Positions 11,129-60,614 of a stretch of 60,855 nucleotides of DNA are shown here, in pieces. The notes under the pieces were generated by a model. The model was not told the origin of the DNA. It was given only the letters and a program-made list of their open reading frames with translations, and did not search any database. The position numbers and the translations under genes were made by a program. Origin of the DNA: Nitrobacter sp. 62-23 (GTDB lineage: Bacteria > Pseudomonadota > Alphaproteobacteria > Rhizobiales > Xanthobacteraceae); assembly GCF_001897285.1 (NCBI RefSeq), contig NZ_MKSM01000112.1:1-60855 (forward strand). Direction: 5' to 3'. Positions within the stretch are counted from its first letter, which is position 1; each line of letters starts with the position of its first letter.

Positions 11129-11138
11129 GGAGGCTTCG

Positions 11139-11855: not shown

Positions 11856-11875
11856 GCCGAGCGGGAGAGCGAAGC

Positions 11876-12061: not shown

Positions 12062-12252
12062 AGCTGATCACTTCGTTTGCGTTCATGACGCTGATGGCGA
12101 CGCTGCTCGCAGGCTGCGCCTACAAACCCCTCAAAGCGCCTTGCTCGCCGGATGAGGGCGGAGCGCCGCTCGCCTATTCAGACGCGACGCCGCCTACCGA
12201 GCCTGATGATCTGAAAAGGTTCGCCCGCTGCGGCCCGATGCGGCCGATCTGA
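12058..12252 (+). CDS. virB7: VirB7-like small lipoprotein
   Basis: 64 aa from ATG 12058. The lipobox LLAGC puts the lipidated Cys at residue 20. The mature part of about 45 residues has two more Cys, one in APCSPDEGG and one in FARCGPM. Small lipoproteins at this spot act as VirB7, which stabilises VirB9 at the outer membrane, or as entry-exclusion factors; size and position favour VirB7. Overlaps of 4 bases on one side and 8 bases spacing to virB6 on the other fit a polycistronic gene. Confidence 0.7.
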   Translation: MKLITSFAFMTLMATLLAGCAYKPLKAPCSPDEGGAPLAYSDATPPTEPDDLKRFARCGPMRPI

Positions 12253-12260
12253 GAGGGGCG

Positions 12261-14904: not shown

Positions 14905-14910
14905 CGCGCA

Positions 14911-17278: not shown

Positions 17279-19421
17279 GATCGGCATCGCGATCCTTCTT
17301 CTTCTCGGCTTCTGGCTATTGTGGAGCATGGCCTACGAGGTCGTCGTGGCGCTCCGCTGGGCGCCGACCCGATTTCCCAGCGAAGGTACCAGCCGCTGGG
17401 CTCTCTTCCGGATGCAGAACGCCGATCGCTCGGCGGACTTTTTCCTTGTCGCCTGGCGTCATTTCTATGACCGCCTCATCTTCACGCCAACCCGGGTTGA
17501 GGCGCTCATTCGCGCGGGCTACGCCGCGGCGGCTGTTGTCGCGCTCGGCCTGGGCGGCCTACTGTTCGCCTTCGTCAACCGGCGCCAGATGCCGTACGGT
17601 GCCGCGCGCTTCGGCACGGTGATGGAGGCGGCGAAGCAAGGCCTGACGGCCAGGCAGGGCATCGTGCTCGGAACGCTGGGCGGGGCGACGATCCGCTCCG
17701 ATGAACCCGCGCATATTCTGGTCGTCGGGCCATCACGCTCCGGAAAAGGCACCGGCTTTGTCCTCCCGAACGGTTACTTCTGGCAGGGTTCGGCGGTGTT
17801 CTTCGATCCCAAGCGGGAGAACTTCGGCGCGTTAGCAAATCATCGGGCAACGATGGGCAACAAGGTCTTCATGTTTTCGCCGGGCTCGAATGACACCCAT
17901 CGCTACAACCCGCTGGATTTCGTGCGACGTGACGAGCGCATGGCGACCGACTGCCTGGTCGTCGCTTCCTTCGTGATCCCTGAAAAGGCGGACGATACCT
18001 GGGCCGGGGCAGGGCGGCTCCTGCTGTCTGCCCTGATCGGCTACGTGCTGTCGTCGCCTCTGATTGCTGGTGCTCAGCACATGCGCAGCGTCGCGCGGAT
18101 GACCACGACCGGCAAAGACATTTCATCGGTGCTGCGCGCCATCGTGAGGACCGAACGGCCGCATTTGCCGACATGGGTGGTCGACAGCTTTAACCAGTAT
18201 ATCGCCTTGGAACCTGAGACGCGCAACAGCGCCGTCTTCAATGTCAACATGGCGATGTCGCTGTGGAATAACGGGCTGATCTCCGCAGCGACCGAGACGT
18301 CCGACTTCGATATTCGCGAGTTACGCCGCCAGCCGATGACGATCTTCATCGGCTGCACCATCGCAGAACTCTCGATCTTCCGGCCGCTGATACGAATTCT
18401 GTTCCAGCAGATCCACGATCTTCTGATGGTGAAGATTCCTGGCGACGATGAGCCCCATCAGGTGCTGCTGATGCTCGACGAATTCTACCACGTCGGGCGG
18501 ATGGACTCGTTGATCTCGAAGATCACGATCAGCGCCGGCTACGGCTTCCGCATGGCGATCGTCATGCAAGACATCGCGCAGCTCGACGAGCTCTACGGCC
18601 GCAACACGCGCATCACCACGGTGTCGGGCTCGCAGATCAAGTTGTTCATCCAGATCAACGATCTCGAAACGTCGGAGTTTGTCTCCGAGATGCTGGGCGA
18701 GACGACGCAGATTTACAAAACACCGATCAAGCGGCCGGGGCAGGGCATCTTCGCGCCGCGGGTCTGGGCGCCGCATTACACGCCGCGGCCGCTGCGCAAC
18801 CCGCTTGAGCTTCGAGAAATGTCCGCGCGGCTGTCGATCCTGATGGTCAAGAACTCACGATCGTTCGAATTGACGAAGATTCGGCATTACGTCGACAAGC
18901 CGTATCGCCGGTATTATCAAGCAACGAAGGGGCACCCTCCACAGCTTCCCGCCTTGCGGGCGTGGCAGGACGAAGTGCTGGGCGGCGCCATCAATCCGGC
19001 GCCAGAGGCGGTCGAGGGCGCAGACACCAGTGTCGGGATCACCGCGGCCGCGCCGGCGAAAGTCCGGCAGCTGCGCCGGCCTTCGGCAAAACGCACGCCG
19101 AAGAAGTCACCCGATACCGCCAGGCCATCAGCTCCATTGAACCCCGGGCCGCTTACCATTACAGCGCGGCGCGGGACTCCAAAATCCGAACGCAAGCCGC
19201 TTTCGCTGGGCGAATCCCCGCCATCCACTCCGGGTGATAGCTGCGACGTCCGCGACATTCTTGCGTCCGCCAGCGGGCAACAGGATGAGAACTTCGGAGC
19301 TATGATGAAGACGTTGCATCTCGGGACCCGATCTGGGAGCAATCTGGTGCAAGAGGCCGCCAACACGCTGCTGTCCCTTCACCGGTCGTTTGGGGATGAG
19401 CCGGAGACGGAGGAAGAATGA
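17256..19421 (+). CDS. virD4: VirD4/TraG coupling protein
   Basis: 721 aa from ATG 17256 (GGGGGGAAAGG upstream). Two N-terminal membrane segments precede Walker A VGPSRSGKGTG (about residues 157-167) and Walker B VLLMLDEFYHVG (about residue 404). The sequences FFDPKRENFG and SGSQIKLFIQIND also match the VirD4/TraG family. It brings the relaxase-DNA complex to the channel. The tail from about residue 590 is low-complexity, basic and Pro-rich, and ends in a short helical acidic segment, longer than the minimal family core and perhaps a substrate-recognition tail. It ends the virB operon and overlaps the next start as ATGA. Confidence 0.95.
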   Translation: MARVVAYRIGIAILLLLGFWLLWSMAYEVVVALRWAPTRFPSEGTSRWALFRMQNADRSADFFLVAWRHFYDRLIFTPTRVEALIRAGYAAAAVVALGLGGLLFAFVNRRQMPYGAARFGTVMEAAKQGLTARQGIVLGTLGGATIRSDEPAHILVVGPSRSGKGTGFVLPNGYFWQGSAVFFDPKRENFGALANHRATMGNKVFMFSPGSNDTHRYNPLDFVRRDERMATDCLVVASFVIPEKADDTWAGAGRLLLSALIGYVLSSPLIAGAQHMRSVARMTTTGKDISSVLRAIVRTERPHLPTWVVDSFNQYIALEPETRNSAVFNVNMAMSLWNNGLISAATETSDFDIRELRRQPMTIFIGCTIAELSIFRPLIRILFQQIHDLLMVKIPGDDEPHQVLLMLDEFYHVGRMDSLISKITISAGYGFRMAIVMQDIAQLDELYGRNTRITTVSGSQIKLFIQINDLETSEFVSEMLGETTQIYKTPIKRPGQGIFAPRVWAPHYTPRPLRNPLELREMSARLSILMVKNSRSFELTKIRHYVDKPYRRYYQATKGHPPQLPALRAWQDEVLGGAINPAPEAVEGADTSVGITAAAPAKVRQLRRPSAKRTPKKSPDTARPSAPLNPGPLTITARRGTPKSERKPLSLGESPPSTPGDSCDVRDILASASGQQDENFGAMMKTLHLGTRSGSNLVQEAANTLLSLHRSFGDEPETEEE

Positions 19422-41637: not shown

Positions 41638-41667
41638 TGAGCATTCTCTCGCAATCGGTCTATGGTG

Positions 41668-41698
41668 ACCCTAGAGTCTGTAGCGACTACAGGGTCAA
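41668..41698 (-). promoter_or_regulatory. mer promoter/operator with 19-bp spacer
   Basis: On the minus strand, TTGACC (41693-41698) and TAGGGT (41668-41673) are separated by exactly 19 bases. The spacer contains the dyad CTGTAGTCGCTACAG, the classic MerR operator form. The overlong spacer is what MerR-family activators untwist on metal binding. It drives merTPA leftward, and merR diverges from it. Confidence 0.88.
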
Positions 41699-41727
41699 GC
41701 GAAATCTCTCACGAATGCGTGACGTCG

Positions 41728-42201
41728 ATGATCAAACAGATTGATGGGTTTTCGATTGGAGTTCTCTCAGAACGCAGCGGCGTGAACGTCGAAACGATCC
41801 GCTACTATGAGAAGATCGGAATCATGCCGTCGCCGGTACGTAGCGCAAGCGGCTACCGCGTCTATCGGCTGGAGCACGCGAGACGATTGCATTTCGTGCG
41901 TCGCGGCCGGGAATTGGGCTTTAGTCTCGACGAACTGCGGGGGCTGCTGCTTGTTGTCGACGGCCATACCTGCAGTTGCCGAGAGGTGCACGAACTCACA
42001 GTCCAGCATCTCGCCGATATTCGTCAGAAAATTAAAGATCTTCGGCGCCTGGAACGAGTGATGTCGGATATGGCAGCGCAGTGCACGCGGGATCTGGTAC
42101 CGGAGTGTCCGATCATCGATGCACTCTTCGAGATGCGGCCCGGCGCCTACGAAACGGGCTATGCAAGAGTTCGCGCTGAGAGAAGCTCGAAGAGCAAATG
42201 A
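41728..42201 (+). CDS. merR: MerR mercury-responsive regulator
   Basis: 157 aa from ATG 41728; earlier in-frame starts cross the operator. The N-terminal MerR helix-turn-helix reads FSIGVLSERSGVNVETIRYYEKIGIMPSP, RSASGYRVY. The metal-binding Cys are C in GHTCSCREVHE and C in ECPIID, the three-Cys pattern of MerR. It binds the operator between merR and merT and activates merTPA with Hg(II). Confidence 0.93.
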   Translation: MIKQIDGFSIGVLSERSGVNVETIRYYEKIGIMPSPVRSASGYRVYRLEHARRLHFVRRGRELGFSLDELRGLLLVVDGHTCSCREVHELTVQHLADIRQKIKDLRRLERVMSDMAAQCTRDLVPECPIIDALFEMRPGAYETGYARVRAERSSKSK

Positions 42202-48763: not shown

Positions 48764-49236
48764 ACGTCCGGGGCGGCATAATCCAACTTTCGCCAATGTG
48801 TGCCTCTCGAGGGCGCTTACGATCGTCTCGCGACGAAGCCCTACCTCTTGACTGATGTCGGAATCGGTCTTGTGACGCGGCGTCATGCGCAACGTCTCTT
48901 CTATCATTTCGCGGAACAATCCGGCGCGATTGCAAAACGGCGGTGCCTTCCTGACAAAAAGCTGGGCATCGACGGGAGCCCGACCTCACCATCTGGTCTA
49001 GCAATGCTGCTCGATAAGCCTGTCGGTCTTTCCCGGCTCGGCGAAGATCACCGCGACACGATCACCCATCCTCCTTGCTGCCGTCGAACGGCTTTTCATT
49101 ACCCCGGCACCAGATGCTGCGGATCGGTCGCCCGCTGATCGAGTGTCCCGTCATTCGAGACAATTCCAGGACATCAATTTATCACCACCACTTTCCGCTG
49201 AGAGAGTCGCCCTGCCGCTCACATCAGCGTGAACTT
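48764..49236. other. Non-coding stretch before the opgC promoter
   Basis: Nearly 500 bases with no ORF that shows family sequence or a good start. There may be decayed coding DNA, but I recognise nothing. The SigF-type promoter begins at the right edge. Confidence 0.3.
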
Positions 49237-49262
49237 GTAACCAACACGGTGATCTCTTCGAA
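49237..49262 (+). promoter_or_regulatory. SigF-type promoter upstream of opgC
   Basis: GTAACC (49237-49242), 16-base gap, CGAA (49259-49262). The upstream flank GTGAACTT resembles the CGTGAG part seen at the other copies. The pattern matches Caulobacter SigF promoters, and sigF-nrsF is encoded 7 kb to the right. Confidence 0.72.
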
Positions 49263-49543
49263 CTTCCTTGTGGGGATTGTCAAATCACCGCGCTGACAGA
49301 CTACATCGCGAGATCGCCGTGAGGGTTAGCCTTCACAGCGGGTGCATAAGGTTATCACTCTGGACAACGGGGCTATCGTCATCGAGCCAAACACAATTTT
49401 CGGGCTACACCGACCTACTTACAAAACGATCCCTCCACAACGCGCCCGGATCCCCGACATCGGTTCTCCAAATGCATTCCGCTTCTTCGAATAGTCGTTC
49501 GAGCGCAAACAGGGCCACCGCACGCAAGCAGTCGGAAGTTAAA

Positions 49544-50851
49544 ATGGTACACACGCCGGCAAACAACACTCTTCCAATCAGCGGACGCGATCATCGTCTT
49601 GATCTGTTTCGCGGCATCGCTAACTGGGCGATCTTTCTTGATCATATTCCAAACAACGTTGTCGCGTGGATCACGATCAGAAACTACGGCTTCAGTGACG
49701 CGGCTGAGCTTTTCATCTTTATGTCAGGATATATGACATCGCTGGTTTGCACGAATATTATGCGGCGGCGCGGCTTTGTTGCGGGAATGTCCTGGTTGAT
49801 GAAGCGCGTCTGGCAGCTTTACGTCGCTCACATTTTCTTGTTTGTGTTGTATGCGGCCATGATCGGCCATATCGCACAAAGTTACGATAATCCTACGCTC
49901 ATAAATGAATTCAATATTGCCGGTTTGGTGAGCAACCCTTTCGACGTCCTTACCCAGGGCTTGCTCCTCCGTTTCAAGCCCCTTAACATGGACGTTCTCC
50001 CCCTCTACATTGTCCTTTTGGCAGGTATCTTGCCAATTTTATGGCTCATGTTGCGGTTGCCCGATGCTACGATGTTGGGATCATTGTATCTCTACCTCGC
50101 TGCGCGACATTTCGGCTGGAATTTGTCCGCCTACCCCGAAGGAGCATGGTATTTCAATCCCTTTACGTGGCAGCTGCTGTTCGTTCTTGGCGCATGGTTT
50201 GCTGTGGGCGGCGCAAAGCGATCACGCCGTCTCATTCGTTCACGAAGTCTTCTTTATGTTGGAGTCGTCTATTTGCTATTTTCATTCGCAATGACGATGG
50301 CCGGTCATATCCCGAATCTGGCGAATGAATTTCCAAAATGGCTCTTTGACGCATTCAATCCAAATGACAAGACCGACCTCGCTCCTTACCGCGTGATCCA
50401 TTTTGCGTTCATTGCACTGTTGGCGACACGGCTTCTGCCCGTGAACTGGAGCGGCTTGCAATGCAGTATTCTTCAACCTCTGATCAAATGCGGAGAACAG
50501 TCTCTCCATGTCTTTTGTTCAGGAATTATCCTGTCATTCTTGGCCCATTTCGTATTGGAGTCAGGCTCGCAGACCGTGTTGGCACAAATCCTCGTCAGTG
50601 TAGCTGGACTTTCGATAATGACGGCAATTGCGTACTTCGCGTCTTGGTCCAAGACGTTCGATAAGCCACGATCGCTCGCATTTTTAGGGCACTCCGGGAG
50701 CGATGTGATCGAGACCGCTGACAGCGATGATGCTGAAGTGCGCTCCAAAACCGTACTTGCCTGGAGCGACCCGACTTTTCTTACGAAAGGTAAGAACGGC
50801 GGGTACGTGGGGATCGGCAGTCGCAAAAACGTTCACTTGAAGTGTCAATAG
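49544..50851 (+). CDS. opgC: OpgC-family glucan modification membrane protein
   Basis: 435 aa if started at ATG 49544 (CGGAAG upstream); ATG 49472 would add 24 residues. The sequence starts ISGRDHRLDLFRGIANWAIFLDHIPNN and has about ten membrane helices, with the motif DAAELFIFMSGYMTSLV and the later KPLNMDVLPLYIVLL, matching OpgC. OpgC transfers succinyl groups to osmoregulated periplasmic glucans. The C-terminal 60 residues are polar and not conserved. The distance from the SigF-like -10 to the ATG is about 280 bases, so either a long leader exists or an upstream start is used. Confidence 0.85.
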   Translation: MVHTPANNTLPISGRDHRLDLFRGIANWAIFLDHIPNNVVAWITIRNYGFSDAAELFIFMSGYMTSLVCTNIMRRRGFVAGMSWLMKRVWQLYVAHIFLFVLYAAMIGHIAQSYDNPTLINEFNIAGLVSNPFDVLTQGLLLRFKPLNMDVLPLYIVLLAGILPILWLMLRLPDATMLGSLYLYLAARHFGWNLSAYPEGAWYFNPFTWQLLFVLGAWFAVGGAKRSRRLIRSRSLLYVGVVYLLFSFAMTMAGHIPNLANEFPKWLFDAFNPNDKTDLAPYRVIHFAFIALLATRLLPVNWSGLQCSILQPLIKCGEQSLHVFCSGIILSFLAHFVLESGSQTVLAQILVSVAGLSIMTAIAYFASWSKTFDKPRSLAFLGHSGSDVIETADSDDAEVRSKTVLAWSDPTFLTKGKNGGYVGIGSRKNVHLKCQ

Positions 50852-51077
50852 CTGGCCGTGATATCCTACTGATCGCCGGCAACGGCGGCTTCAATGCTCT
50901 GCGCTGATAAAATCGCGAACAATTTCTCGCAGGTTGGTTACGCAATGATTGATACTCGGTCGGGTGGAAAGGTAATGTCGCAAACGACACTAGGATCGCG
51001 CGTTCACGAGACACGACGCCTTCTCTCCGGACCGACAGCCACAATTTACCCGGCAACGTTTTTCCTGAGCCTCAGGG
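50852..51077. other. Intergenic, nothing recognised
   Basis: 226 bases between the opgC stop and the small leftward membrane protein gene. A short GC hairpin (GCCG...CGGC) occurs near 50875-50890 without a T-run. No gene or promoter could be supported. Confidence 0.3.
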
Positions 51078-51380
51078 TCAATGTCTGTCGTCAGAATCGG
51101 TTTTGTGAACACCAGTTTTGACATTTGAACTGCCCGTGTCGTTCTGATTGCCACCCATATTTTTCATGCACAACATCATGATTGCACACGGCAGCAAGAA
51201 CAGCAGTGGCAGCAGTTTTCCAGCGCTCTGCGTGCCGAACGCGCCACTGAACACAAGGATCGCACCGACGAAAACGACCGCGCAGACCGCAAGCCCGCTC
51301 CATCCACTGAGCCAACCTCGCTTTCTGCCGGCCGCCGGAGAGCCAGAAGATCGGGTCGTCAGATTTCTATTCAGTTCCAT
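51078..51380 (-). CDS. Small membrane protein, DUF2933-like
   Basis: 100 aa from ATG 51380 with AAAGGAGATGAAAC upstream. Two membrane segments: WSGLAVCAVVFVGAILVFSGAF and LLPLLFLLPCAIMMLCMK. The second, with PC-x-x-M-M-x-C-M, matches DUF2933-type proteins often found in copper and silver clusters. The C-terminus is polar. A related pattern is in the protein at 58203-58553. Possibly a metal-binding membrane protein. Confidence 0.7.
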   Translation of the reverse strand: MELNRNLTTRSSGSPAAGRKRGWLSGWSGLAVCAVVFVGAILVFSGAFGTQSAGKLLPLLFLLPCAIMMLCMKNMGGNQNDTGSSNVKTGVHKTDSDDRH

Positions 51381-51475
51381 TGTTTCATCTCCTTTCAAGA
51401 GGACAATGTAATCTCTCCAACAATTGGAAGGTCAGGGTGCTGGTTCTCGGCCTCGACGCTCCATTGGACGACAAC

Positions 51476-51501
51476 TGGAGTGGGCCCCTGGTGCCGGACA
51501 G
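51476..51501 (+). repeat. IS left terminal inverted repeat
   Basis: 26-bp repeat, identical to the reverse complement of 52701-52726. The orfB stop (51510) is 9 bases inside. Confidence 0.92.
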
Positions 51502-51509
51502 AAATCAGA

Positions 51510-52301
51510 CTACTGATTTGACCATGGCCGGGTATGTTGCTCCTCGAACTGCACGGGGCTGATGTAGCCGAGCGCGGAATGCAGGCGGCGTTGATTGTAA
51601 ACGTCGTCGATGAACCTGGGAAGCTGCTCGGCGATGTCGTCGAAGGTCTCGAATGCCATCGGATAGACCGCCTCGACTTTGAGTGTCTTCATGAAGCTCT
51701 CCGCCTTGGCGTTATCGTACGGGTTTCCGCGCCGGCTCATCGAGCCGACTAAGTTATGGGCCGCCAGCAATGCTTGATAGATACCAGATGCGTATTGCGA
51801 TCCGCGGTCCGAATGATGAATGCATCCTGGTCGCGGACGCCGTCGCTCGATCGCCACCTTCAGCGCCGCGAGCGCGAGCCGCGCGTCGATCGACCTGCCG
51901 ATCGCATAGCCGACGACGCGGCGTGACCAGGCGTCGAGGATGATCGCCACATAGGCAAAGCCGCCGATGATGGCGACGTAGGTCAGGTCCGCTACCCAGA
52001 GCTGGTCCGGGCCATCAAGGATGATATCCTTCGAACGATCCGGGAAGATGGGCTGATCATGGTCGCTGTCGGTGGTGGCGATATAACGCCTGCGGCGGCG
52101 CGGCTGAAGATCGTGCTCGCGCATCAGGCGCTTGATCCGCTTGTGGTTGGCGATCACGCCTCGATGGCGAAGCGCCGCCTGCACGCGGCGCCAGCCATAG
52201 GCTTCGAACTCGTCGCAGATCGCGGTAATCGCGTTCAACAGCTCGACATCGCCAGTGCGCGCCGCAGGCGCATCATAATAGGTTGATCGCGCGATGCCCA
52301 T
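51510..52301 (-). CDS. IS3-family transposase OrfB
   Basis: 263 aa from ATG 52301. This is a DDE/rve domain: D in WVADLTYV, D in [12 protein letters not shown] in [14 protein letters not shown]. The OrfB frame continues upstream ([16 protein letters not shown]-like) over the end of orfA, so OrfAB is probably made by a -1 slip at GAAAAAC near 52378. The strong HTH_21-like start is ARSTYYD. It catalyses element excision and insertion. Confidence 0.93.
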
Positions 52302-52651
52302 CAGCCGGCATCCTTCAGCGATGGACAGGCCGCGGGGCCGGTGATCACGGATGTAGTCGCGCTTCTCTGCCGGGGTACGTTTTTCAGAGCCCCTTTTAAA
52401 AACTCCAGTTCGAGCGCCTGACGGCCGACCAACCGCTCGAGCGCGGCGATGCGCGCTTCATATTCCTGGACCAGATCCGCAGCGCGCGCGTCGTCGCCCA
52501 GCGCGCCGGCCTCGTACTTTTCGACCCAGATACGGATCAGGTTACGCGAAAGGTCGTGGCGCTTGGCCAGGCCGTGAAGCGTCTCGCCACTCAGAAATTC
52601 CTGGGCGACCTGGCGCTTAAACTCAACGCTGTGGGATCGGTGTCTCGGCAT
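52301..52651 (-). CDS. IS3-family OrfA
   Basis: 116 aa. An N-terminal helix-turn-helix reads [41 protein letters not shown], then a leucine-zipper-like helix ([26 protein letters not shown]). The end after residue 95 is in the wrong frame relative to OrfB, as expected for frameshift-regulated IS3 elements. Confidence 0.92.
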
Positions 52652-52700
52652 GGGCTTTTCTCCAAAAGCCCGGCCACCCAGTCAATTCAACTCTGCTTAC

Positions 52701-52726
52701 CTGTCCGGCACCAGGGGCCCACTCCA
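52701..52726 (-). repeat. IS right terminal inverted repeat
   Basis: 26-bp partner of 51476-51501. The right flank begins AAC (52727-52729), completing the target duplication. Confidence 0.92.
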
Positions 52727-52760
52727 AACACTGGTCAGATTGAGCGGTCCTTTGCCGCCT

Positions 52761-53411
52761 TCAAAGCATCCGTCGAAACGAGTAGTTTCTAAAGGCTACG
52801 CGCCAACCGCGGTGATCCGGCCAGAACATCGGCACCCGTCTTTGGTAGCTCCGATATTTATCACCGTACTGTTGGATCATCTGCTTCTCCTCCATTCTGG
52901 CCAGGAGCCAGTACGCGCCGACGATGATAGGGAAGGCCGTCAGTGAGAATAGCGTTGGCCAATGCACAACACTTTCGCCAAACAGCGCCAGAAAGATGCC
53001 AGCGTATTGTGGATGGCGCATCAAGCTGTAAGGGCCACCCCTGGCGAGCCGCCCTCTCGCTCTCGCTCGATACACTTCACGCCAGCCGGCGATGATCAGA
53101 GCGGCTCCAAAAAAGACAACAGTGTAACCGAGAGCCATGGAAGCTGGCATTACCCACCAACTGCCCGTCAGATAAACCCAGAGATTGCCATCCCAAAGAT
53201 TTCCCGCGACGTCCAGATTGAAGACTCGGGCTAATAGGTAAATCGTGAGGGGAAATCCATACATCTCGGCATAAAATGCGATGACGAATGCCTGCACGAT
53301 TCCAGCGCGAGTCCACTCCCGCCAGCCCTTCGGCACGACAAGGCGGTAGAAACACCACGATACGACAACGATTGAAATCGTGGCTCCTCCCCAGAGTATA
53401 TTTTCGTTCAT
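52761..53411 (-). CDS. ICMT/PEMT-type membrane methyltransferase
   Basis: 216 aa with five or so membrane segments. The C-terminal methyltransferase signature is present: GPYSLMRHPQYAGIFLALFGE, then RMEEKQMIQQYGDKYRSYQRRVPMFWP (the E-E-x-x-L..Y-x-x-Y region). Bacterial members methylate lipids, thiols or unknown small molecules. A SigF-type promoter lies 280 bases upstream on the same strand. The IS right end is only 34 bases beyond the stop, so the C-terminus was nearly interrupted but appears intact. Confidence 0.85.
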   Translation of the reverse strand: MNENILWGGATISIVVVSWCFYRLVVPKGWREWTRAGIVQAFVIAFYAEMYGFPLTIYLLARVFNLDVAGNLWDGNLWVYLTGSWWVMPASMALGYTVVFFGAALIIAGWREVYRARARGRLARGGPYSLMRHPQYAGIFLALFGESVVHWPTLFSLTAFPIIVGAYWLLARMEEKQMIQQYGDKYRSYQRRVPMFWPDHRGWRVAFRNYSFRRML

Positions 53412-53687
53412 TTATCTGCCTCGTACCGATTCTTGATCGGCCAAAACGCCCCGTCTCCTGACGCGCGCGTTTGTCTCTGCAATCGCCGCGTTTATGGACG
53501 GCCATCCGATGGCCTCAACGCGATGCCCGACCCCGCGTTTTAATCAATGAGTCGGAACAATAGAAGCAGTGCATATCGTTTCTTTTCTCGGCTCCCGCCC
53601 GAAACGACAAAGCTATGCGTCCTCACCGCTCGCGGCCCGTCTTTTCGCGAACCTCGATCGCTCCTCGCGCGCCTGTTATTAAGTTAG
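53412..53687. other. Leader region between SigF-type promoter and methyltransferase gene
   Basis: No credible gene in 276 bases. If the promoter at 53688-53713 is used, this is a long untranslated leader. I saw no riboswitch pattern or strong hairpin. Confidence 0.3.
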
Positions 53688-53713
53688 TTCGAACAGAGCG
53701 AACGCATGGTTAC
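53688..53713 (-). promoter_or_regulatory. SigF-type promoter, leftward
   Basis: On the minus strand, GTAACC (53708-53713), 16-base gap, CGAA (53688-53691). It faces the methyltransferase gene. It lacks the CGTGAG flank seen in other copies (the flank reads GGCCT), so it may be weaker. Confidence 0.65.
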
Positions 53714-53943
53714 AGGCCGTCGTCGGATTCTTTGAACATCGGCTTCAAACCCGTCATCGCAGGAACGCCCCGCGCCGGCTTGGCTCATGCCGGCCTCTCC
53801 AGCCCCGCGAACGATTAGGCCATGGAGCATGCTATGGCGTTGTCCTCTGGGCTCCCAAGCGGAAACCGCTGGCACATTTCCGTCGAACGAGACTATACTG
53901 TCGTTACAATAGTGTGGTGTGGCCTTCACGAAGCGAGGTCGCC
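53714..53943. other. Upstream region of the SPW-repeat gene
   Basis: 230 bases without a supported gene. A stretch at 53890-53915 (ATACTGTCGTTACAAT) is AT-richer and could hold the SPW gene promoter, but no clear box pair fits. Confidence 0.3.
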
Positions 53944-54345
53944 ATGTTCCAGCGAAACCGGAAAACCGAAGCTTTCGTCGATTTCATCAATCTCGCATTG
54001 GGCGGCTTTCTGATCTTGTCGCCGTGGTTACTCGGATTCAAATCGCAACTCGGATGGCACACATCATGGATGGCCGGCGCCGCCATTGGCGTCGTCGCAA
54101 TCTTTTCGATTGCCGACCTTTTTGACACCGTTTCAATTCCGGCGTTTTTCGAATCGGAAGAATGGATCAATCTGACGATCGGATCGTGGTTGGCAATATG
54201 CCCGTGGGTCCTCAACTTCAACGACGATACCATGGCGATGCAGGTGCATCTCGTGGTGGGGATCGTCGTCGCAGCCATTGGCGCGGTCGAGCTCTGGGTG
54301 ATCCATCACCGCCCCGCGGAAAAGGAGCGTGATAAGCTTTGTTGA
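53944..54345 (+). CDS. SPW-repeat membrane protein
   Basis: 133 aa from ATG 53944 with GCGAGGTCGCC upstream. Four membrane segments form two repeats: FINLALGGFLILSPWLLGF with the SPW motif, and INLTIGSWLAICPWVLNF with the degenerate CPW motif. SPW-repeat proteins are of unknown function and are common in alphaproteobacteria. It ends just before the porin-like gene in the same direction. Confidence 0.85.
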   Translation: MFQRNRKTEAFVDFINLALGGFLILSPWLLGFKSQLGWHTSWMAGAAIGVVAIFSIADLFDTVSIPAFFESEEWINLTIGSWLAICPWVLNFNDDTMAMQVHLVVGIVVAAIGAVELWVIHHRPAEKERDKLC

Positions 54346-54393
54346 ATTCCAAGACAGGACGAAATTGCAAGTAGTCGCGCGGGGGAGCCTACA

Positions 54394-55677
54394 ATGCGGA
54401 AGGGTGTACTGCTCGGACTGGTCGTTTTGGTGTTTTCGGTCGGCGGCGCGGCGGGTGCAGATTTGACGACGAAGGCGCGCACTTCCGTACCCGCGTTGCC
54501 GTCCTGGTGGGATACCGTCACCATAACCGGCCATGTGCAAGCGGGGATCACCTTCAATGAGGGGCCTTCCGGCGGCATTAATTTTGGCCACCTCTTCACC
54601 GATAAGGCCAATTCCCTGTTGATGAACCAGGCGCTGCTGACGGTTCAGCGTCCGCTCGATCCCAAAGCGAGCGGATACGATTTCGGATTCAAGTTCCAGG
54701 CGATGTACGGCTCGGATGCCCGGTACACGCATTTTCTGGGTGAGTTCGATCAATCGATCAGCGGCCGCAATCAGTTTGACATCGTCGAGGCCCACGCTCT
54801 GTTTCATTTGCCGTGGCTCACGTCGGGTGGCGTGGATGTGAAGGTCGGACAATACGTAACCCTGGAAGGCGCCGAAGTTATTTACGCGCCGGACAATGCG
54901 CTCTACTCGCACTCCTACATCTTCAATTTCGGCATTCCGTTCAAGCACACCGGGATCATGACGACCACCCATCTAACGCACCTCCTCGATGTTTATGCTG
55001 GCATCGACACCGGTGTGAATACAACCTTCGGCAACAGGTTCGACCGCTTCAATGGCGGCGACAACAACACGGCTGCGGCGTTCCACGGTGGGATCGGACT
55101 CAATTTGATGGACGGCGCGCTGACCGTGCTGGCGACGACCCACATCGGCCCGGAAAATCCCAATGTCTCGTCGGCCGTGCTTGCGGGTGTCAATCCGAAT
55201 AGGGCTCTGCGTTATCTCAACGATGTGACGATCGTCTGGAAGGCAACCGACAAGCTCACGCTCACCACCGACCTGAACTATATTCGTGAGGACGGCTTCA
55301 ACGCGGTCGGAAGCGGCGTCGCGCAATACGTCACCTATGCCCTCAACGATTGGCTCAAGATCACCGGACGCGGAGAAGTCTGGCGCGACAACAGTGGTTT
55401 CTTCGTTGCCGCATTCCCCGGCAACCTAGACTTTGTCAGGGTCGAGCATGGCAATCCGTTGGGTACGGCGATCGGCGGCGGCGCGACCACCTACGGCGCC
55501 CTGACGGTCGGACTTGCGATCAGGCCCCCGGTACCCAAAGAATTCGACGGCCTGGTTGTCAGGCCCGAAGTTCGTTACGATACTTCGTTGAACGGAACGA
55601 CGCCATTCGGCGCCGGAACGAAGCGTTCGCAATTTACGTTCGGCGGCGACATCATCATCCCGATCAAAATCAGATGA
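54394..55677 (+). CDS. Outer-membrane beta-barrel porin-like protein
   Basis: 427 aa with a signal peptide (GVLLGLVVLVFSVGGAAGA). Repeated amphipathic strands, for example WDTVTITGHVQAGITFN, YDFGFKFQAMYGSD and VDVKVGQYVTLEGAE, and a final FTFGGDIIIPIKIR fit an outer-membrane barrel of the BBP2/putative-porin type. The C-terminal residue is Arg, not Phe, so barrel insertion may differ from classical porins. Substrate unknown. It follows the SPW gene by 48 bases. Confidence 0.8.
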   Translation: MRKGVLLGLVVLVFSVGGAAGADLTTKARTSVPALPSWWDTVTITGHVQAGITFNEGPSGGINFGHLFTDKANSLLMNQALLTVQRPLDPKASGYDFGFKFQAMYGSDARYTHFLGEFDQSISGRNQFDIVEAHALFHLPWLTSGGVDVKVGQYVTLEGAEVIYAPDNALYSHSYIFNFGIPFKHTGIMTTTHLTHLLDVYAGIDTGVNTTFGNRFDRFNGGDNNTAAAFHGGIGLNLMDGALTVLATTHIGPENPNVSSAVLAGVNPNRALRYLNDVTIVWKATDKLTLTTDLNYIREDGFNAVGSGVAQYVTYALNDWLKITGRGEVWRDNSGFFVAAFPGNLDFVRVEHGNPLGTAIGGGATTYGALTVGLAIRPPVPKEFDGLVVRPEVRYDTSLNGTTPFGAGTKRSQFTFGGDIIIPIKIR

Positions 55678-55911
55678 TTACGCCACGAGTGGTTGCGCGA
55701 AACAGTGGGTGTTGAATCGGGTACTCGATCGTTAAGACCCGATGCGATGATCCCATCGCATTGGTTTGATCCCCTGCGCGGCGCTGCCGCACGTTCTCAA
55801 AAAAGACGTAGGTCTCTTTATCGGGATCGGACCGATCGATTGCACTTCGCGGAGCAGTCAGGCAGCCCGCCCCGTGCTGCGGGTGGCCTTGCCCTTGTGA
55901 GGCCGGGAAAA
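55678..55911. other. Intergenic between convergent genes
   Basis: 234 bases with no supported gene between the porin stop and the stop of the small leftward secreted protein. No clear bidirectional terminator with a T-run was seen. Confidence 0.3.
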
Positions 55912-56145
55912 TTATTCGCACGACCAGATACCCGTTTTGGGTCCTCCGCGATAGTTGCAAGTTTTCGGGCGCGGACGTGGAGCAGCGGCCCGATCGGTGC
56001 GGGGCATCACAGGTGCCATCTGCTCCGCGGTCGAGGTCCTCTGAGGACCCAAGCGTGCCTCGGTCCCGGTCGCGCGCGCAAAGCTTGGCGATGCTGAAGC
56101 GACCAATAACAACGACAACAATGCAATCAGGCTTGATCTGCACAT
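55912..56145 (-). CDS. Small secreted protein under a SigF-type promoter
   Basis: 77 aa from ATG 56145 with GTGGGAGGTAAAA upstream. The signal peptide is SSLIALLSLLLVASASPSFA. The mature part of about 55 residues is Arg/Pro-rich and ends KTCNYRGGPKTGIWSCE, with one Cys pair that could form a loop. I do not recognise the family. A SigF-type promoter 58 bases upstream on the same strand supports it as a stress-induced periplasmic protein. Confidence 0.72.
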   Translation of the reverse strand: MCRSSLIALLSLLLVASASPSFARATGTEARLGPQRTSTAEQMAPVMPRTDRAAAPRPRPKTCNYRGGPKTGIWSCE

Positions 56146-56202
56146 TTTTACCTCCCACGATTCCTCAGCCGTCCGATCCTGAATGGACCGCACATGAATG
56201 AA

Positions 56203-56228
56203 TTCGGAAACGAAGCTGCGCCGGTTAC
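56203..56228 (-). promoter_or_regulatory. SigF-type promoter, leftward
   Basis: On the minus strand, GTAACC (56223-56228), 16-base gap, CGAA (56203-56206) followed by T. The upstream flank TCGTGACCT matches the CGTGA element of the other copies. It drives the small secreted protein gene. Confidence 0.78.
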
Positions 56229-56662
56229 AGGTCACGACTATGTGAGCGCGGTTGAATTCCTCGCCGCGCAGACGGAAGTTGCGGGAAAGGAAAGAGGTTG
56301 GGAGATCGGACGGAACGGTATCATTTCCGGCCGACTTCGCATCCACACCTGCATTCAACCCGCCGTCCCGACTGACGCCGGATCAGCAGCTTTCGCTCGG
56401 TGCCGAAGTCGGTCGGGCGCCACGTAGTCGCCTGACTTGGCCTGTGAGATGGAAGATGGTGTTAACGTAGGTCGCTAACGGTTCATCTGACGGCCCGAGA
56501 CATTGCGAATCCGCAACCCGCGCGCAGTCAGATGCAAGCTATACTCCCAGCAGAGTTTTTGAAGTCCGAACGGTTTGATCAATGGACGCATTTCCATCCG
56601 ACCCCCACTTCGCGATTGAGCATGGCTTTCGCGCCGCGCGGGCCTCACGATCTCGTGAGAGT
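56229..56662. other. Region between two SigF-type promoters
   Basis: Some 430 bases with no supported gene. Open frames here lack ribosome sites and family sequence. The divergent promoters at 56203 and 56663 bound it, so it is a control region or decayed DNA. Confidence 0.3.
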
Positions 56663-56688
56663 GTAACCGTGGGCATTCTTCATTCGAA
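56663..56688 (+). promoter_or_regulatory. SigF-type autoregulatory promoter of sigF-nrsF
   Basis: GTAACC (56663-56668), 16-base gap, CGAAT (56685-56689). The flank CTCGTGAGAGT carries the CGTGAG element. It lies 15 bases upstream of the sigF start, so SigF most likely activates its own operon. Confidence 0.85.
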
Positions 56689-56703
56689 TTCAAAGAGGGA
56701 GAA

Positions 56704-57258
56704 ATGACGAAGGAGTCCGACCTCAAAGCGCTCATGACGGCGAGCCTCCAAGGCGACTCCATCGCGCATCGATCGCTGCTGACGGCTTTGAGCGGACATC
56801 TGCGGAGCTACTACAAGAGCAGACTTTTGCGATCCGGACGCCCGGCCGAGGAAACTGAAGACCTCGTGCAGGAAGCCTTGATCGTCATCCACACGCAACG
56901 TCACACCTACGATCCGGAGCAGCCGCTGACGCCGTGGGTGTACGCCATTGCCCGCTACAAGCTGATCGACCATTTGCGGCGCACCAGGACCACGACGGCG
57001 GACGTGCCATTGGAAAACGCCGAATACATCCTGGCATCCGACGACAACGCCGCCGCTGAAAGCCAACTCGATCTCGCCAAGCTCTTTGAGAGGTTACCGG
57101 AACGAATGAGACTTTCGCTCCAATACGTGAAGCTCGACGGCCTGAGCGTGGCCGAGGCCGCCGATCGTAGCGGGATGTCGCCATCCGCCGTCAAGGTCAA
57201 CATTCACCGAGGGCTGAAGATCCTCACCGCATTGATTGCACGGGAGACCAAAGCGTGA
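56704..57258 (+). CDS. sigF: ECF sigma factor, SigF type
   Basis: 184 aa. Region 2 reads LRSYYKSRLLRSGRPAEETEDLVQEALIVIHTQRHTYDPEQPLTPWVYAIARYKLIDHLRR, and region 4 has LPERMRLSLQYVKLDGLSVAEAADRSGMSPSAVKVNIHRGLKIL with its helix-turn-helix. ATG 56704 has GAGGGAGAA upstream. It overlaps nrsF (GTGA). The pairing with an NrsF-type membrane protein and the GTAACC-N16-CGAA promoters match the Caulobacter SigF system, which responds to metal and redox stress. Confidence 0.93.
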   Translation: MTKESDLKALMTASLQGDSIAHRSLLTALSGHLRSYYKSRLLRSGRPAEETEDLVQEALIVIHTQRHTYDPEQPLTPWVYAIARYKLIDHLRRTRTTTADVPLENAEYILASDDNAAAESQLDLAKLFERLPERMRLSLQYVKLDGLSVAEAADRSGMSPSAVKVNIHRGLKILTALIARETKA

Positions 57259-57896
57259 AAACCAATGAATTGATTTCCATGCTCAGTTCGCAGGTCGACC
57301 CGGTCGATACGCGGGAAGTTGTCCGGAACGTCCGGATTGCAATCTTGGTTGGCGCCGCGGCATCCCTGCTGGCGGTGGTTTTTGTCCTCGGCGTTCGCAC
57401 CGACCTCAACGAGATGCACGCCCAAGTCTTCCTGGTCGCAAAACTGGCCTTCAGTTTGTCGGTCGTGATTTTGGCCTCGCATTACCTGGTCAAGTACATC
57501 CGTCCCGGCGGCGAATTCCGGGTCCGGTTCGCCCTCACCGTCCTGCCGTTTCTCGCGGCCATGATCATCGCGGCGATCAGTCTGGCCACGGCACCGCGGT
57601 CGCACTGGGAGACCATGGTATTCGGCAGCTATTGGCTTGAGTGTCTGATCGCCATCCCGACGGTCGCGGTCGTGCCGTTCGCCGCCATCATGTCGGCGGT
57701 TCGCCGCGCCGCGCCTACGGACCTGGTCCGCACCGGCGCGCTTGCAGGACTCGTCGCGGGCGGCGTCAGCGCAACCGCCTACGCTTTGCATTGCATGGAT
57801 GACCTGCTTCCCTTCATTGCGCTCTGGTATGGTGGCACAATCGTTTTATGTACGGTCACCGGCGCCGTGCTCGGGCCCAAATTGCTGCGTTGGTAA
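57255..57896 (+). CDS. nrsF: NrsF/DUF1109 anti-sigma factor
   Basis: 213 aa from GTG 57255, overlapping sigF by 4 bases. Six membrane segments, starting LVGAAASLLAVVFVLGVRT, with the family pattern KTNELISMLSSQVDPVD at the cytoplasmic N-terminus. The segment ATAYALHCMDDLLPFIALWY contains a Cys in the usual region, likely used in sensing. NrsF holds SigF at the membrane and releases it under metal or oxidative stress. Confidence 0.92.
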   Translation: MKTNELISMLSSQVDPVDTREVVRNVRIAILVGAAASLLAVVFVLGVRTDLNEMHAQVFLVAKLAFSLSVVILASHYLVKYIRPGGEFRVRFALTVLPFLAAMIIAAISLATAPRSHWETMVFGSYWLECLIAIPTVAVVPFAAIMSAVRRAAPTDLVRTGALAGLVAGGVSATAYALHCMDDLLPFIALWYGGTIVLCTVTGAVLGPKLLRW

Positions 57897-58121
57897 ATCG
57901 ACGGACCATCCGTCAGGTCGCGGAACTCCCGAAGGCGGCGCGAATCCGACCCGCGGAACCCTCGACAAGATCGGCTGCGTGTTTGGATTCCAGATCGGCT
58001 TCATCTCGAGACGGGAAGCCGTGCCATCGGCGGACGTAAGTGCGAAGACGATACCTGACCTCGGGTTCGTTGATGCCGATGGACTCCTGTCGGCTGCCTG
58101 ATCTCACGAGATCGTGAGCTT
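57897..58121. other. Intergenic after nrsF
   Basis: 225 bases without a supported gene. A palindromic CTCACGAG-ATCGTGAG stretch at 58103-58118 sits just before the next SigF-type promoter and may help its activity. Confidence 0.35.
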
Positions 58122-58147
58122 GTAACCGGACGCACCCTTTTCCCGAA
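58122..58147 (+). promoter_or_regulatory. SigF-type promoter of the DUF2933-like/Met-rich gene pair
   Basis: GTAACC (58122-58127), 16-base gap, CGAA (58144-58147). The flank ATCGTGAGCTT carries CGTGAG. Start codon of the next gene is 56 bases downstream. Confidence 0.82.
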
Positions 58148-58202
58148 CTAACAGATGACGCTCGCTTTCCAGGGTGAGCGCCAAGACGTGGGTGCATAGT
58201 GC

Positions 58203-58553
58203 ATGAACGATCGGGAAGACGCGACGGTGACCATGTTAATGCCAACGTTGGACGTCCAACGCCGAATGCTTGGCACGTTTGATTCTCGCAGCCGTACGCT
58301 GTGGCTGGTCTTGGCTGCATCGGCGTTGCTTGCCGGAATCGCGTTCAACTGGCGGTGGCTCGTGGTATCAGGTGCCCTGCCATTCCTCCTGCCAGTCCTC
58401 CCCTGTCTGGCCATGTGCGCCCTGCACCTATGTTCTCGTGGCAACAATGCCTCGGGATGCGAGCGACGCGAAGCGTCGCAATCTACTCCAAACCGCACCG
58501 CAGCCCGCGTTCACCACCGACGCGCGCCATTCTTTAGAAAGGCAACAAAATGA
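58203..58553 (+). CDS. Small membrane protein, DUF2933-like
   Basis: 116 aa from ATG 58203; no strong ribosome site, and an ATG at 58233 is an alternative. Two membrane segments: TLWLVLAASALLAGIAFNWRWLVV and ALPFLLPVLPCLAMCALHLCSRG. The second has P-C-L-A-M-C-x-L-H-L-C, a DUF2933-like soft-metal-ligand pattern like that at 51078-51380. The tail is basic. The stop overlaps the Met-rich protein start (ATGA), so the two act together. Confidence 0.72.
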   Translation: MNDREDATVTMLMPTLDVQRRMLGTFDSRSRTLWLVLAASALLAGIAFNWRWLVVSGALPFLLPVLPCLAMCALHLCSRGNNASGCERREASQSTPNRTAARVHHRRAPFFRKATK

Positions 58554-58819
58554 AGATCACCACTCTCATCCCGCTCGCATTGATTGCGTCGTTAGCGGCT
58601 TCCGCCGCCGTCCAGGCGGACGAAACGTCCACGCCACCGAAGACGCCGACGGAAACCAATCAACCCATGATGGGCAACGGCTCACAAGGCATGCAGGGAA
58701 TGATGGGCATGATGAGCCAAATGCAGCAGATGATGGAAAGCTGCAATCAAATGATGAAGGCCAGCAACGAGCGTCACGACAAGCAAGATGCACCGAAGCA
58801 AAAAGACCGTCACGGCTGA
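58550..58819 (+). CDS. Met-rich periplasmic protein
   Basis: 89 aa from ATG 58550. The signal peptide is TLIPLALIASLAASAAVQA. The mature part has a Met/Gln-rich core (QGMQGMMGMMSQMQQMM with ESCNQMM) and a basic, His-ending tail (KDRHG). Met-rich small periplasmic proteins bind Cu(I) or Ag(I), for example CusF/CopM-type proteins, though this one has no known fold. Its place upstream of cusBA fits a metal-buffering role. A small hairpin (CGGCTG-AAA-CAGCCG) overlaps its stop. Confidence 0.78.
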   Translation: MKITTLIPLALIASLAASAAVQADETSTPPKTPTETNQPMMGNGSQGMQGMMGMMSQMQQMMESCNQMMKASNERHDKQDAPKQKDRHG

Positions 58820-58960
58820 AACAGCCGCCGTCCGATCATCATGCCAATCGATGAACTTTGCATTCGGAAAGGCGTCCATGAATCGTTCGGCCTCGGCATC
58901 AATCGGCTTTCGGGGCATCGAATGACCATTCAAGTGGGTCTTTCACATCGCCGTGAGCCT
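58820..58960. other. Intergenic upstream of the cusB promoter
   Basis: About 140 bases with no supported gene; a minus-strand frame here lacks a ribosome site and family sequence. The promoter begins at 58961. Confidence 0.3.
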
Positions 58961-58986
58961 GTAACCGGTCCGGTGTCCGGTGCGAT
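58961..58986 (+). promoter_or_regulatory. SigF-type promoter of cusBA (variant -10)
   Basis: GTAACC (58961-58966), 16-base gap, CGAT (58983-58986) instead of CGAA. The flank GCCGTGAGCCT carries CGTGAG. It lies about 240 bases upstream of the cusB ATG. Confidence 0.65.
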
Positions 58987-59050
58987 CTAATCGGTGGTTC
59001 GTTTGTACGATCTTCGACCGGTGGACTGATGTGCCCGGCCGAGCACGGCT

Positions 59051-59136
59051 CGGTCGGGTACGGAGGGATCGCCAGAAACGGGCGACCCGCTTGCGGTCGG
59101 GTACGGAGGGATCGCCAGAAACGGGCGACCCGCTTG
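59051..59136 (+). repeat. Tandem 43-bp palindromic repeat, two copies
   Basis: Identical 43-bp units at 59051-59093 and 59094-59136. Each has outer CGGGT...ACCCG and inner CGCC...GGCG inverted repeats, so each could fold into a hairpin. They lie between the SigF-type promoter and cusB, in the likely 5' leader. Probably a REP-like element or a leader control site. Confidence 0.85.
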
Positions 59137-59228
59137 CGATCGCTTCCCGGGCTGACATCGTTTCTGCCGGAAAGACGCAATCAGGTTCAGTTGCGGCATT
59201 CCGCAGCAGTGCAAGGGGTACACTACTG

Positions 59229-60614
59229 ATGGATAAGTTGACCGAACACCGTCCATTCGAGGATGGATACGTGAGGCCCCGCGCCCAAACCGGAAGATCG
59301 ACCGCGAAACGGATCGTGCTCGTTGCGTTTGCTACAAGCGCACTCGTCGCAATGCTGGGAGTTGGCTATCGACTCGGCCACTCTAACCAAACGTTGCCTG
59401 GCTGGGTCCCGCTTCGTGTCGCAGCCCTCCTCGGATCCCAGCCCGCCAAGCCCGTCGAAGCTGCAACGCCGACCCAGGACGCAAACTCCGGGGCCAAGCG
59501 TATTCTCTTCTATCGCAATCCGATGGGTCTCCCTGACACCTCTCCCGTTCCGAAGAAGGACTCGATGGGGATGGACTACATCCCCGTCTATGAAGGCCAG
59601 AACGACGCCTCCACAATCCAGATTTCACCAGGCAAATTGCAGCGCACCGGCGTGCGCTCCGAGCCCGCCGCTCTGCGCACCGTGACGCGGCCCATCCGCG
59701 CGCCCGGAACGATCAAGCTCGATGAGCGGCGCGTGGCGGTAATCTCGCTGCGAGCCCAGTCATTCATCGAAAGCGTCGAGAACGTCACGACAGGCGATCA
59801 TGTCACCAAGGGACAGCCCCTTCTGAAGCTTTATTCCCCGGATGTGGCATCCGCCGGCGCCCAATATCTCTCCATCGTCGGGGACAGCGCTGGAACTGCC
59901 AATCTCGCGGGACGCAAGCAACTGATCGAGGGCGCGCGGCGGCGACTCGAAAACCTGGCCGTGCCCGCCGACGTAATCGCCGAGATCGATCGCACCAAAA
60001 CGGTCCCGCTGACCATTACCTGGACGGCTCCGCGCGACGGCGTGATTCTGGAGCGAACGGCCGTCGAGGGCATGCGGGCGATGCCCGGCGACGTGTTGTT
60101 TCGGTTGGCTGACACGTCTGTAATCTGGATCATCGCCGACGTCGCCGAACAGGATATCGATGCCGTAAAGATCGGCGCGGCTGCGACGATCAGGGTCCGG
60201 AGCCTGCCGGGTCGGGAGTTCAAGGGATCAGTCGCCTTGATCTATCCCCAGGTCAACACCGAGACGCGCACCACCAAGGTACGTATCGAACTACCCAATC
60301 CGGACGACGTGCTTCTTCCCGACATGTTCGCCGACGTTGAAATCGCGTCGGGTGCGGAAAAGCCCGTCGTCGCGGTACCCAACGGCGCGGTGATCGATAC
60401 CGGAGCCCGGCAGATCGTTTTCATCGACAAAGGCGAAGGCCGTTTCGAGCCGCGTGAAGTCAAGGTCGGCACGCACGGCGAGGACTACACTGAGATCCGC
60501 GAAGGCGTCGGCGAAGGCGATCGCGTTGTCGTTGCCGCCAACTTCCTGATCGATGCCGAAAGCAACCTGAAATCGGCCTTGCAGGCATTTACAGACGGAG
60601 AGAAATCGAAATGA
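59229..60614 (+). CDS. cusB: CusB-type periplasmic adaptor with heavy-metal-binding domain
   Basis: 461 aa from ATG 59229 (AAGGGG 10 bases upstream); the frame is open further up but that part reads through the leader repeats. One membrane anchor (IVLVAFATSALVAMLGVGY) precedes a heavy-metal-binding domain with YRNPMGLPDTSPVPKKDSMGMDYIPVYEG (residues about 95-125). The adaptor domains follow, with VTTGDHVTKGQPLLKLYSPDV, APRDGVILERTAVEGM and DEVLLPDMF-type strands. It is the adaptor of a Cu/Ag or related RND pump. The stop overlaps cusA (ATGA). Confidence 0.93.
   Translation: MDKLTEHRPFEDGYVRPRAQTGRSTAKRIVLVAFATSALVAMLGVGYRLGHSNQTLPGWVPLRVAALLGSQPAKPVEAATPTQDANSGAKRILFYRNPMGLPDTSPVPKKDSMGMDYIPVYEGQNDASTIQISPGKLQRTGVRSEPAALRTVTRPIRAPGTIKLDERRVAVISLRAQSFIESVENVTTGDHVTKGQPLLKLYSPDVASAGAQYLSIVGDSAGTANLAGRKQLIEGARRRLENLAVPADVIAEIDRTKTVPLTITWTAPRDGVILERTAVEGMRAMPGDVLFRLADTSVIWIIADVAEQDIDAVKIGAAATIRVRSLPGREFKGSVALIYPQVNTETRTTKVRIELPNPDDVLLPDMFADVEIASGAEKPVVAVPNGAVIDTGARQIVFIDKGEGRFEPREVKVGTHGEDYTEIREGVGEGDRVVVAANFLIDAESNLKSALQAFTDGEKSK

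Follow-up and report, generated by a model that had tools for sequence, protein, structure and literature searches.

The stretch of DNA examined here (the window) is contig NZ_MKSM01000112.1 of Nitrobacter sp. 62-23, 60,855 nucleotides long. It encodes an extracytoplasmic function (ECF) sigma factor, SigF, next to an anti-sigma factor of the NrsF type, and six promoters of the form GTAACC-N16-CGA(A/T) lie within 10 kb in the same region. At five of the six, a 14-bp dyad, TCACR-N4-YGTGA (TCAC-N6-GTGA in its outer letters), ends 3-4 bp before GTAACC, that is, before the -35 box. The dyad sites, their conservation, their fixed register and their link to NrsF can be read directly from the sequences. 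With a further element conserved in fixed register at five promoters, the involvement of a second regulator is likely. Our candidate reading, to which we assign a probability of roughly 0.55, is that the dyad would be bound by a trans-acting regulator other than SigF, which would aid SigF-RNA polymerase at these five promoters. The promoters and genes concerned are the following, a composite promoter being one with both dyad and GTAACC; L and G numbers are our own labels for loci and genomes.

49219..49262, + strand: composite promoter of opgC (dyad 49219-49232, GTAACC 49237, CGAA); kept in L022, L023 and L070
49268..50851, + strand: opgC (OpgC_C, PF10129, by Pfam); the listed open reading frame (ORF) begins at TTG, and the true start is probably near 49544, judging from the annotated gene of L022
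52761..53411, - strand: gene for a PEMT/ICMT-like membrane methyltransferase (by Pfam)
53688..53713, - strand: simple SigF-type promoter of the methyltransferase gene, with no dyad; kept in L022 and L043
55912..56145, - strand: small protein gene, start inferred; by eye, the N-terminus resembles a signal peptide, and Pfam gives no match of weight
56203..56245, - strand: composite promoter of the small exported protein gene (dyad 56232-56245, 3-bp gap, GTAACC, CGAA); kept in L022, L023, L024 and L070
56645..56688, + strand: composite promoter of sigF-nrsF (dyad 56645-56658, GTAACC 56663, CGAA); kept in L022, L023, L024, L043 and L070
56704..57258, + strand: sigF, ECF sigma factor (Sigma70_r2, r4_2)
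57255..57896, + strand: nrsF, anti-sigma factor (PF06532, 3e-60, full length)
58104..58147, + strand: composite promoter of the membrane/Met-rich pair (perfect palindrome CTCACGAGATCGTGAG, GTAACC 58122, CGAA); kept in L022, L023, L024 and L064, with one mismatch in L043
58203..58553, + strand: small membrane protein gene (ORF list, translation)
58550..58819, + strand: gene for a methionine-rich, probably exported protein (13 Met in 89 residues)
58943..58986, + strand: composite promoter of cusB (dyad 58943-58956, GTAACC 58961, CGAT)
58980..60614, + strand: cusB (HlyD_D23), CusB-type adaptor, as the listed ORF; the true start is probably at 59190-59230, judging from the annotated gene of L022 and by eye

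A sequence-only reading of the window had proposed a local SigF regulon from sites at 49237, 53688(-), 56203(-), 56663, 58122 and 58961. The coordinates, the strands and the exact 16-base spacing of all six are correct, as is the full CGAA in five of them, and the chance expectation of about 0.1 per window agrees with the 0.08 obtained for GTAACC-N16-CGAW from dinucleotide shuffles of the window. The window total, however, is eight matches rather than six. The additional ones, at 27915(+) and 52520(-), lie inside a P-type ATPase ORF and inside an IS3 orfA, respectively, and were rejected as promoters. No aligned counterpart of the 52520 site was seen in the nine loci compared; these loci do not cover the place of the 27915 site, for which a plasmid search gave two records that match part of the P-type ATPase gene and do not have the site. 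By comparison, each of the six promoters is kept in at least two sister loci, and together they are well supported. The genome-wide count suggested earlier as a check was carried out on the complete assembly (3,794,033 bases in 142 contigs, the window being contig C112), and gave 14 matches versus 6 for a reversed-pattern control. The excess is confined to the window: 8 of the 14 matches lie within its 60.9 kb, and since the remaining 6 equal the control of the whole genome, the motif is at background level elsewhere. One of these outside matches, at C103:2657(-) (L232), is a GTAACC-N16-CGAA that lacks the dyad and stands some 100 bp ahead of a lipoprotein-like gene; the counts place it in the background.

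The dyad itself had been glimpsed in part, as CGTGAG just upstream of four sites and CGTGA upstream of a fifth. CGTGA is present at all five, but CGTGAG at only three (56663, 58122 and 58961); the other two have CGTGAA (49237) and CGTGAC (56203). CGTGA is the right half of the dyad, and the left half, TCAC, was missing from that account. Two of the five dyads are perfect 16-bp palindromes. The composite pattern TCAC-N6-GTGA-N3,4-GTAACC occurs five times in the genome, always in the window, while its reversed form does not occur, and no match was found in 100 shuffles. The flanks and spacers differ among the five promoters. Islands L022-L024 were retrieved by DNA similarity, and all 14 of their aligned composite promoters retain both half-sites, a count that includes L022, nearly identical to the window, and leaves out the duplicate L144; in L043, L064 and L070, which were fetched by the composite pattern itself, both are intact in 7 of 8, the exception being a single base in L043. 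The methyltransferase promoter has no dyad in L022, L043 or L024 either (in L024 it reads GTAACC-N16-CGA), and Microvirga VF16 (L193) has a composite site before its methyltransferase gene. At cusB, the -10 box is CGAT in the window versus CGAA in all five aligned relatives; in L022-L024, the gene after cusB encodes an efflux permease, and the window contig ends at 60855, 241 bases past cusB.

The sigma/anti-sigma pair, with matching promoters clustered around it, is as the earlier reading described. The sigF product is an ECF sigma factor with region 2 and region 4 only; the adjacent gene encodes a DUF1109/NrsF anti-sigma factor (PF06532, 3e-60); and GTAACC-N16-CGAA, a promoter form confirmed for Caulobacter in PMC3511200 (papers are cited here by PMC number, for passages of their text), stands upstream of sigF and of its putative targets. 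These are the marks of the ECF16, or SigF-NrsF, group, and the sequence-based assignment to this known kind of system is well supported. NrsF has three cysteines, Cys130, Cys180 and Cys199, of which the first two match C131/C181 of Caulobacter NrsF and C129/C179 of OsrA by position rather than by alignment, one residue off.

The view of a horizontally carried sigma factor with its own regulon fares well as to the carrier. Over 83% of an 11.9-kb query, the metal-gene block matches plasmid 2 of Nitrobacter hamburgensis X14 at 96% identity; it occurs as well on pOC167 of Afipia carboxidovorans and on pBAL398.3 of Rhodopseudomonas sp. BAL398. The first 25 kb of the window match 50 plasmid records, 30 of them typed as conjugative, and include type IV secretion genes (VirB4, TrbL/VirB6, TrbI/VirB10, a T2SSE/VirB11-type ATPase and a coupling protein):

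7839-19421: VirB/Trb-type conjugation genes, sharing the contig with the metal genes

That the metal-resistance block belongs to a conjugative-type element is thus well supported by sequence. SigF as the sole reader of the regulon is incomplete, in that a second element is present at five promoters. The genome has one NrsF match. Among nine genomes of the genus Nitrobacter, five have NrsF, one with an internal stop; this is L268 (genome G466), in which the match is interrupted by an internal TAG. Only our genome and G485 have a composite promoter beside sigF; the sigF promoters of L266 and L267 are GTAACA-type and that of L268 GTAACT-type, all three without a dyad at a 4-bp gap.

Outside the genus, the composite pattern was sought in genome contigs of bacteria and archaea, which gave at least 118 stretches; of the 80 listed, 75 are Hyphomicrobiales by title, several coming from one contig. 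Of 134 distinct sites, including those of L022-L024, the 126 with a 4-bp gap were aligned and gave the consensus TCACGTCNNCGTGAGC-T before GTAACC. Eight outer letters are fixed by the search pattern; among the letters free of it, the inner G, T and C reach 57-70% and the C before GTGA 87%. SigF-type proteins are present in 65 and NrsF-type proteins in 66 of the 118 loci (clustered ORFs, judged by eye). Because these loci had been chosen by the pattern, two sets picked on NrsF alone were tested, consisting of the best-scoring NrsF matches of 71 genomes of the order and 37 of the class. Loci with no sigma ORF were dropped (2 of 29 and 3 of 29, respectively), as was the locus of our own genome. 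Within 350 bp upstream of sigF, and with at most one mismatch in ten, a dyad is present in 13 of the 27 loci from the order and in 5 of the 26 from the class, versus 0.8 expected in each from shuffles. Four of the 13 come from one genus (L173, L176, L177 and L179), and in L188 the dyad overlaps its GTAAC, as it does in L236 among the five class loci; another of these five, L247, has no GTAAC nearby. In L163, L164, L166, L175, L238, L241 and L245, the dyad lies 3-5 bp from a GTAAC that points away from sigF. Judged by eye, the genes opposite sigF across the dyad are of the DUF2282/MNIO (bufferin) type in L175, L189-L191, L238, L241 and apparently L245, Met-rich or b561-type in L163 and L164, and DUF1223-like in L166.

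When the gap was left free, a scan of 199 genomes of the order gave 51 matches outside our own genome versus 22 for the reversed control, one of the 22 being in our own genome. Nineteen matches have a gap of 4-6 (control 2.6) and nine a gap of 15-16 (control 1.8), five of these nine coming from one genus. NrsF (E 0.001) is present in 17 of the 19 genomes with a gap of 4-6 versus 70 of 198 (Fisher P 5e-7, uncorrected for relatedness). The dyad thus recurs mainly in Hyphomicrobiales and goes with NrsF. In genome G687 both spacings occur, a gap of 15 roughly 0.6 kb away from one NrsF match and a gap of 4 roughly 2.8 kb away from a second, which would be compatible with a shared reader. Two further tabulations carry a selection effect: a tally of 15-16-bp distances in Bradyrhizobium-type loci is biased in that many of these loci were chosen by the dyad, and a segment table whose orthologues were picked by the dyad pattern is circular, so that its 98% was not used. 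In Bosea-type loci (L084, L098, L119 and L120), sigF has no GTAACC promoter, and a dyad-like TCACGGGCTTGTGA lies about 70-90 bp upstream of it.

Of most weight for a reader other than SigF is a dyad that has no SigF promoter beside it, in the merR-merT divergon of the window (41662-42201):

41709..41722, no strand: GTAAC-free dyad in the merR-merT intergenic region; four close homologues have it too

The four homologues are L023, L070, L073 and L097, with MerR proteins 71-79% identical; L091, which is cut at the merR upstream region, falls outside the comparison. The mer dyads form three sequence groups, in which the half-sites are kept and the centres have changed; the dyad is not present at more distant MerR genes. 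As the best sign of a separate reader, the GTAAC-free mer dyad suggests that SigF is not what binds it, though on only three sequence groups. A reader of the dyad may act at the mercury operon as well. A second indication comes from chromosomal Bradyrhizobium/Afipia loci, where the target gene has the dyad and sigF's own GTAACC promoter mostly does not.

The mechanism that we propose runs as follows. A conjugative-type metal-resistance element would carry SigF, the membrane anti-sigma factor NrsF and, within 10 kb, six promoters for SigF. By analogy with the Caulobacter and Bradyrhizobium work, NrsF would release SigF by way of Cys130 and Cys180 when the cell is stressed by metals or oxidants, and the SigF holoenzyme would read GTAACC-N16-CGAA. 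A second regulator, not encoded next door, would bind the dyad and assist SigF-RNA polymerase at the composite promoters, so that full output would need both SigF and the dyad regulator. Class II activators bind near -42. Given that ecfF transcription starts 6 bp past its -10 box (PMC3420878), the dyad would be centred near -42 and hence in the position of a class II activator. From these sequence data, then, we infer that a protein other than SigF probably binds the dyad and probably activates, and the signal is likewise a probable one.

Several observations weigh against this reading. The 53688 promoter has no dyad, and the mer evidence is limited to the three sequence groups. The exact composite is rare, being found in 6 of 119 genomes of the family (control none) and in 1 of 385 of the class, our own. 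In the free-gap scan, gaps of 10-12 are also raised (9 versus a control of 2.6, partly from one genus), which fits poorly with a single helical face. Outside the window contig, the genome has the exact dyad at six places, near chance (7 strand matches for the reversed control), so that a chromosomal regulator would have almost no further exact sites. Nor has a gene for the regulator emerged: no gene neighbouring the window promoters fits, and among the protein clusters present in at least 10 of the 118 pattern-chosen loci, by eye, there is no regulator except SigF and NrsF (MerR is present in 9 loci). Among the dyad neighbours of the 13 NrsF loci, also by eye, there is no candidate common to the loci. 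Among the outside dyads, one may be recorded for itself: at C104:17795 (L221), an intergenic dyad without GTAACC lies about 300 bp upstream of what appears by eye to be a peroxiredoxin-like gene.

The chief alternative is that the SigF holoenzyme itself reads the dyad as an extension of the promoter, through sigma region 4 or the alpha C-terminal domain, with no second regulator. We consider this unlikely, although part of the evidence fits it as well. Island dyads are paired with GTAACC almost without exception (5/5 in L022, 5/6 in L023, 4/4 in L024 and 4/4 in L193), none was found in 124 kb scanned of the remainder of pOC167, and SigF and NrsF are the most recurrent neighbours; the near-constant pairing and the empty remainder of pOC167 suit a SigF-read element, and count to that extent against a separate protein. 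Moreover, Bosea-type dyads before GTTGAAC in five loci, at one time counted as GTAAC-free sites, turned out in four of the five clearly to be coding sequence at the very end (SRLREAS type) of an OpgC-like ORF. They were dropped as evidence, whereby SigF as the reader gains weight and a separate regulator loses some. Set against this are the dyad kept at the mer loci, the chromosomal relatives whose sigF promoters mostly lack it, a gap that differs by lineage (4 or 15-16 bp), and the palindrome, which suggests a dimeric protein. A repressor is a rather improbable choice too: the dyad, abutting the -35 box in fixed register, would be its operator, and the bound repressor would block SigF until released by metal, as a second lock beyond NrsF. 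ArsR and metal-sensitive (CsoR-like) repressors are indeed annotated on pOC167, but the region upstream of the metal-sensitive regulator has a different palindrome and no dyad, and this gene was rejected as a candidate; in addition, dyads of the Bradyrhizobium type, 11-12 bp further upstream, would block poorly. That the dyad is due to chance, or to copies of one duplicated promoter, and has no role is hardly credible: five promoters do lie within 10 kb, but the shuffles gave no match, flanks and spacers differ, and the arrangement recurs in other loci and families.

If a second regulator does bind the dyad, a CopR/CusR/HprR-type response regulator is one conceivable identity, to which we give a small chance. 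In its 5-4-5 layout, two half-sites flanking a 4-bp centre, the dyad agrees with the known boxes of AgrR (ATKACA-N4-TGTMAT; PMC7380067) and CopR/CusR (TGACA-N4-TGTCA; PMC12428095). However, the best score of our genome against TIGR01387 is 250.6 bits versus a cut-off of 279.2, only 1 of 119 genomes of the family scores above it, and the six that have composite promoters are all below; we therefore do not claim CopR/CusR membership. Co-occurrence with TIGR01387 proved uninformative as a route to the regulator, as 114 of the 119 genomes match at E 1e-60 and one is above the cut-off. No CopR/CusR-type gene is found among the pOC167 annotations viewed, the gene table being incomplete and 9.5 kb lying outside the view. 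Two other candidates were set aside: a LysR-family gene near the dyad of Bradyrhizobium-type loci (L203, L205 and L217, around 1501), where the dyad is upstream of a dapA-like gene and not of the regulator (names by eye), and UzcR, for which passages of one paper gave no consensus.

Among known systems, the pair is close to SigF-NrsF of Caulobacter (ECF16; PMC3511200, PMC8224329), with which it shares the sigma and anti-sigma families, promoter boxes and spacing, the two anti-sigma cysteines and the metal link. The targets differ: DUF2282/DUF692 operons and an MsrPQ-type pair in Caulobacter, versus opgC, a methyltransferase, small exported proteins and cusB on a mobile element in the window. 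EcfF-OsrA of Bradyrhizobium (ECF16; PMC3420878) likewise has the same sigma factor and a DUF1109 anti-sigma factor, autoregulation and Cys129/Cys179, but its promoter is GTAAC(g,a)-N14-15, and it serves H2O2 and Met sulfoxide reductase targets; in genomes of the same family as Bradyrhizobium, the dyad is 15-16 bp from GTAAC, unlike the 3-4 bp of the window. For a mobile SigF-NrsF with linked targets there is a precedent, the perchlorate reduction island (sigF/nrsF-yedYZ-mrpX; PMC4623255), whose linked genes include one for a methionine-rich peptide and whose cargo is different; the 89-residue Met-rich protein of the window resembles MrpX by composition only. The operators of CopR/CusR and AgrR are the same kind of inverted repeat beside a promoter (PMC12428095, PMC7380067), from which the dyad differs in its half-site TCACR, in its ECF16 promoter partner, and in that our genome has no gene above the CopR-family cut-off. 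The main text of PMC3511200, figures apart, does not have the words palindrome, inverted repeat, dyad or operator, and we found no description of a dyad in register with ECF16 promoters in the open literature searched, with figures, supplements and most subscription papers falling outside the search. What is new here is, probably, an ECF16 regulon under dual control, with a dyad in fixed register.

In the usual account, an ECF sigma factor suffices as a switch: once it is freed, its promoters fire. A conserved element in register beside ECF16 promoters suggests that there is a second input. It is possible, though we put this forward tentatively, that one widespread regulator in Alphaproteobacteria reads TCACR-N4-YGTGA and cooperates with ECF16 sigma factors; the genes served would be those for copper buffering (DUF2282/MNIO) and for methionine-rich proteins, cusB and mer. 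The gap of about 4 versus about 15-16 bp may then keep parallel ECF16 systems apart in one cell, and the mobile element would thus bring promoters pre-wired to a regulator of the host. A second input would fit the induction of CC2748 in Caulobacter, which is only partly dependent on SigF and for which the authors propose an additional regulatory protein (PMC3511200). By our own extension, it might also bear on S. meliloti RpoE7, whose predicted ECF16 targets were unresponsive in tests (PMC6180224), the dyad not having been looked for there. If true, it would change the view of copper and hypochlorite regulons in many soil, symbiotic and nitrifying bacteria.

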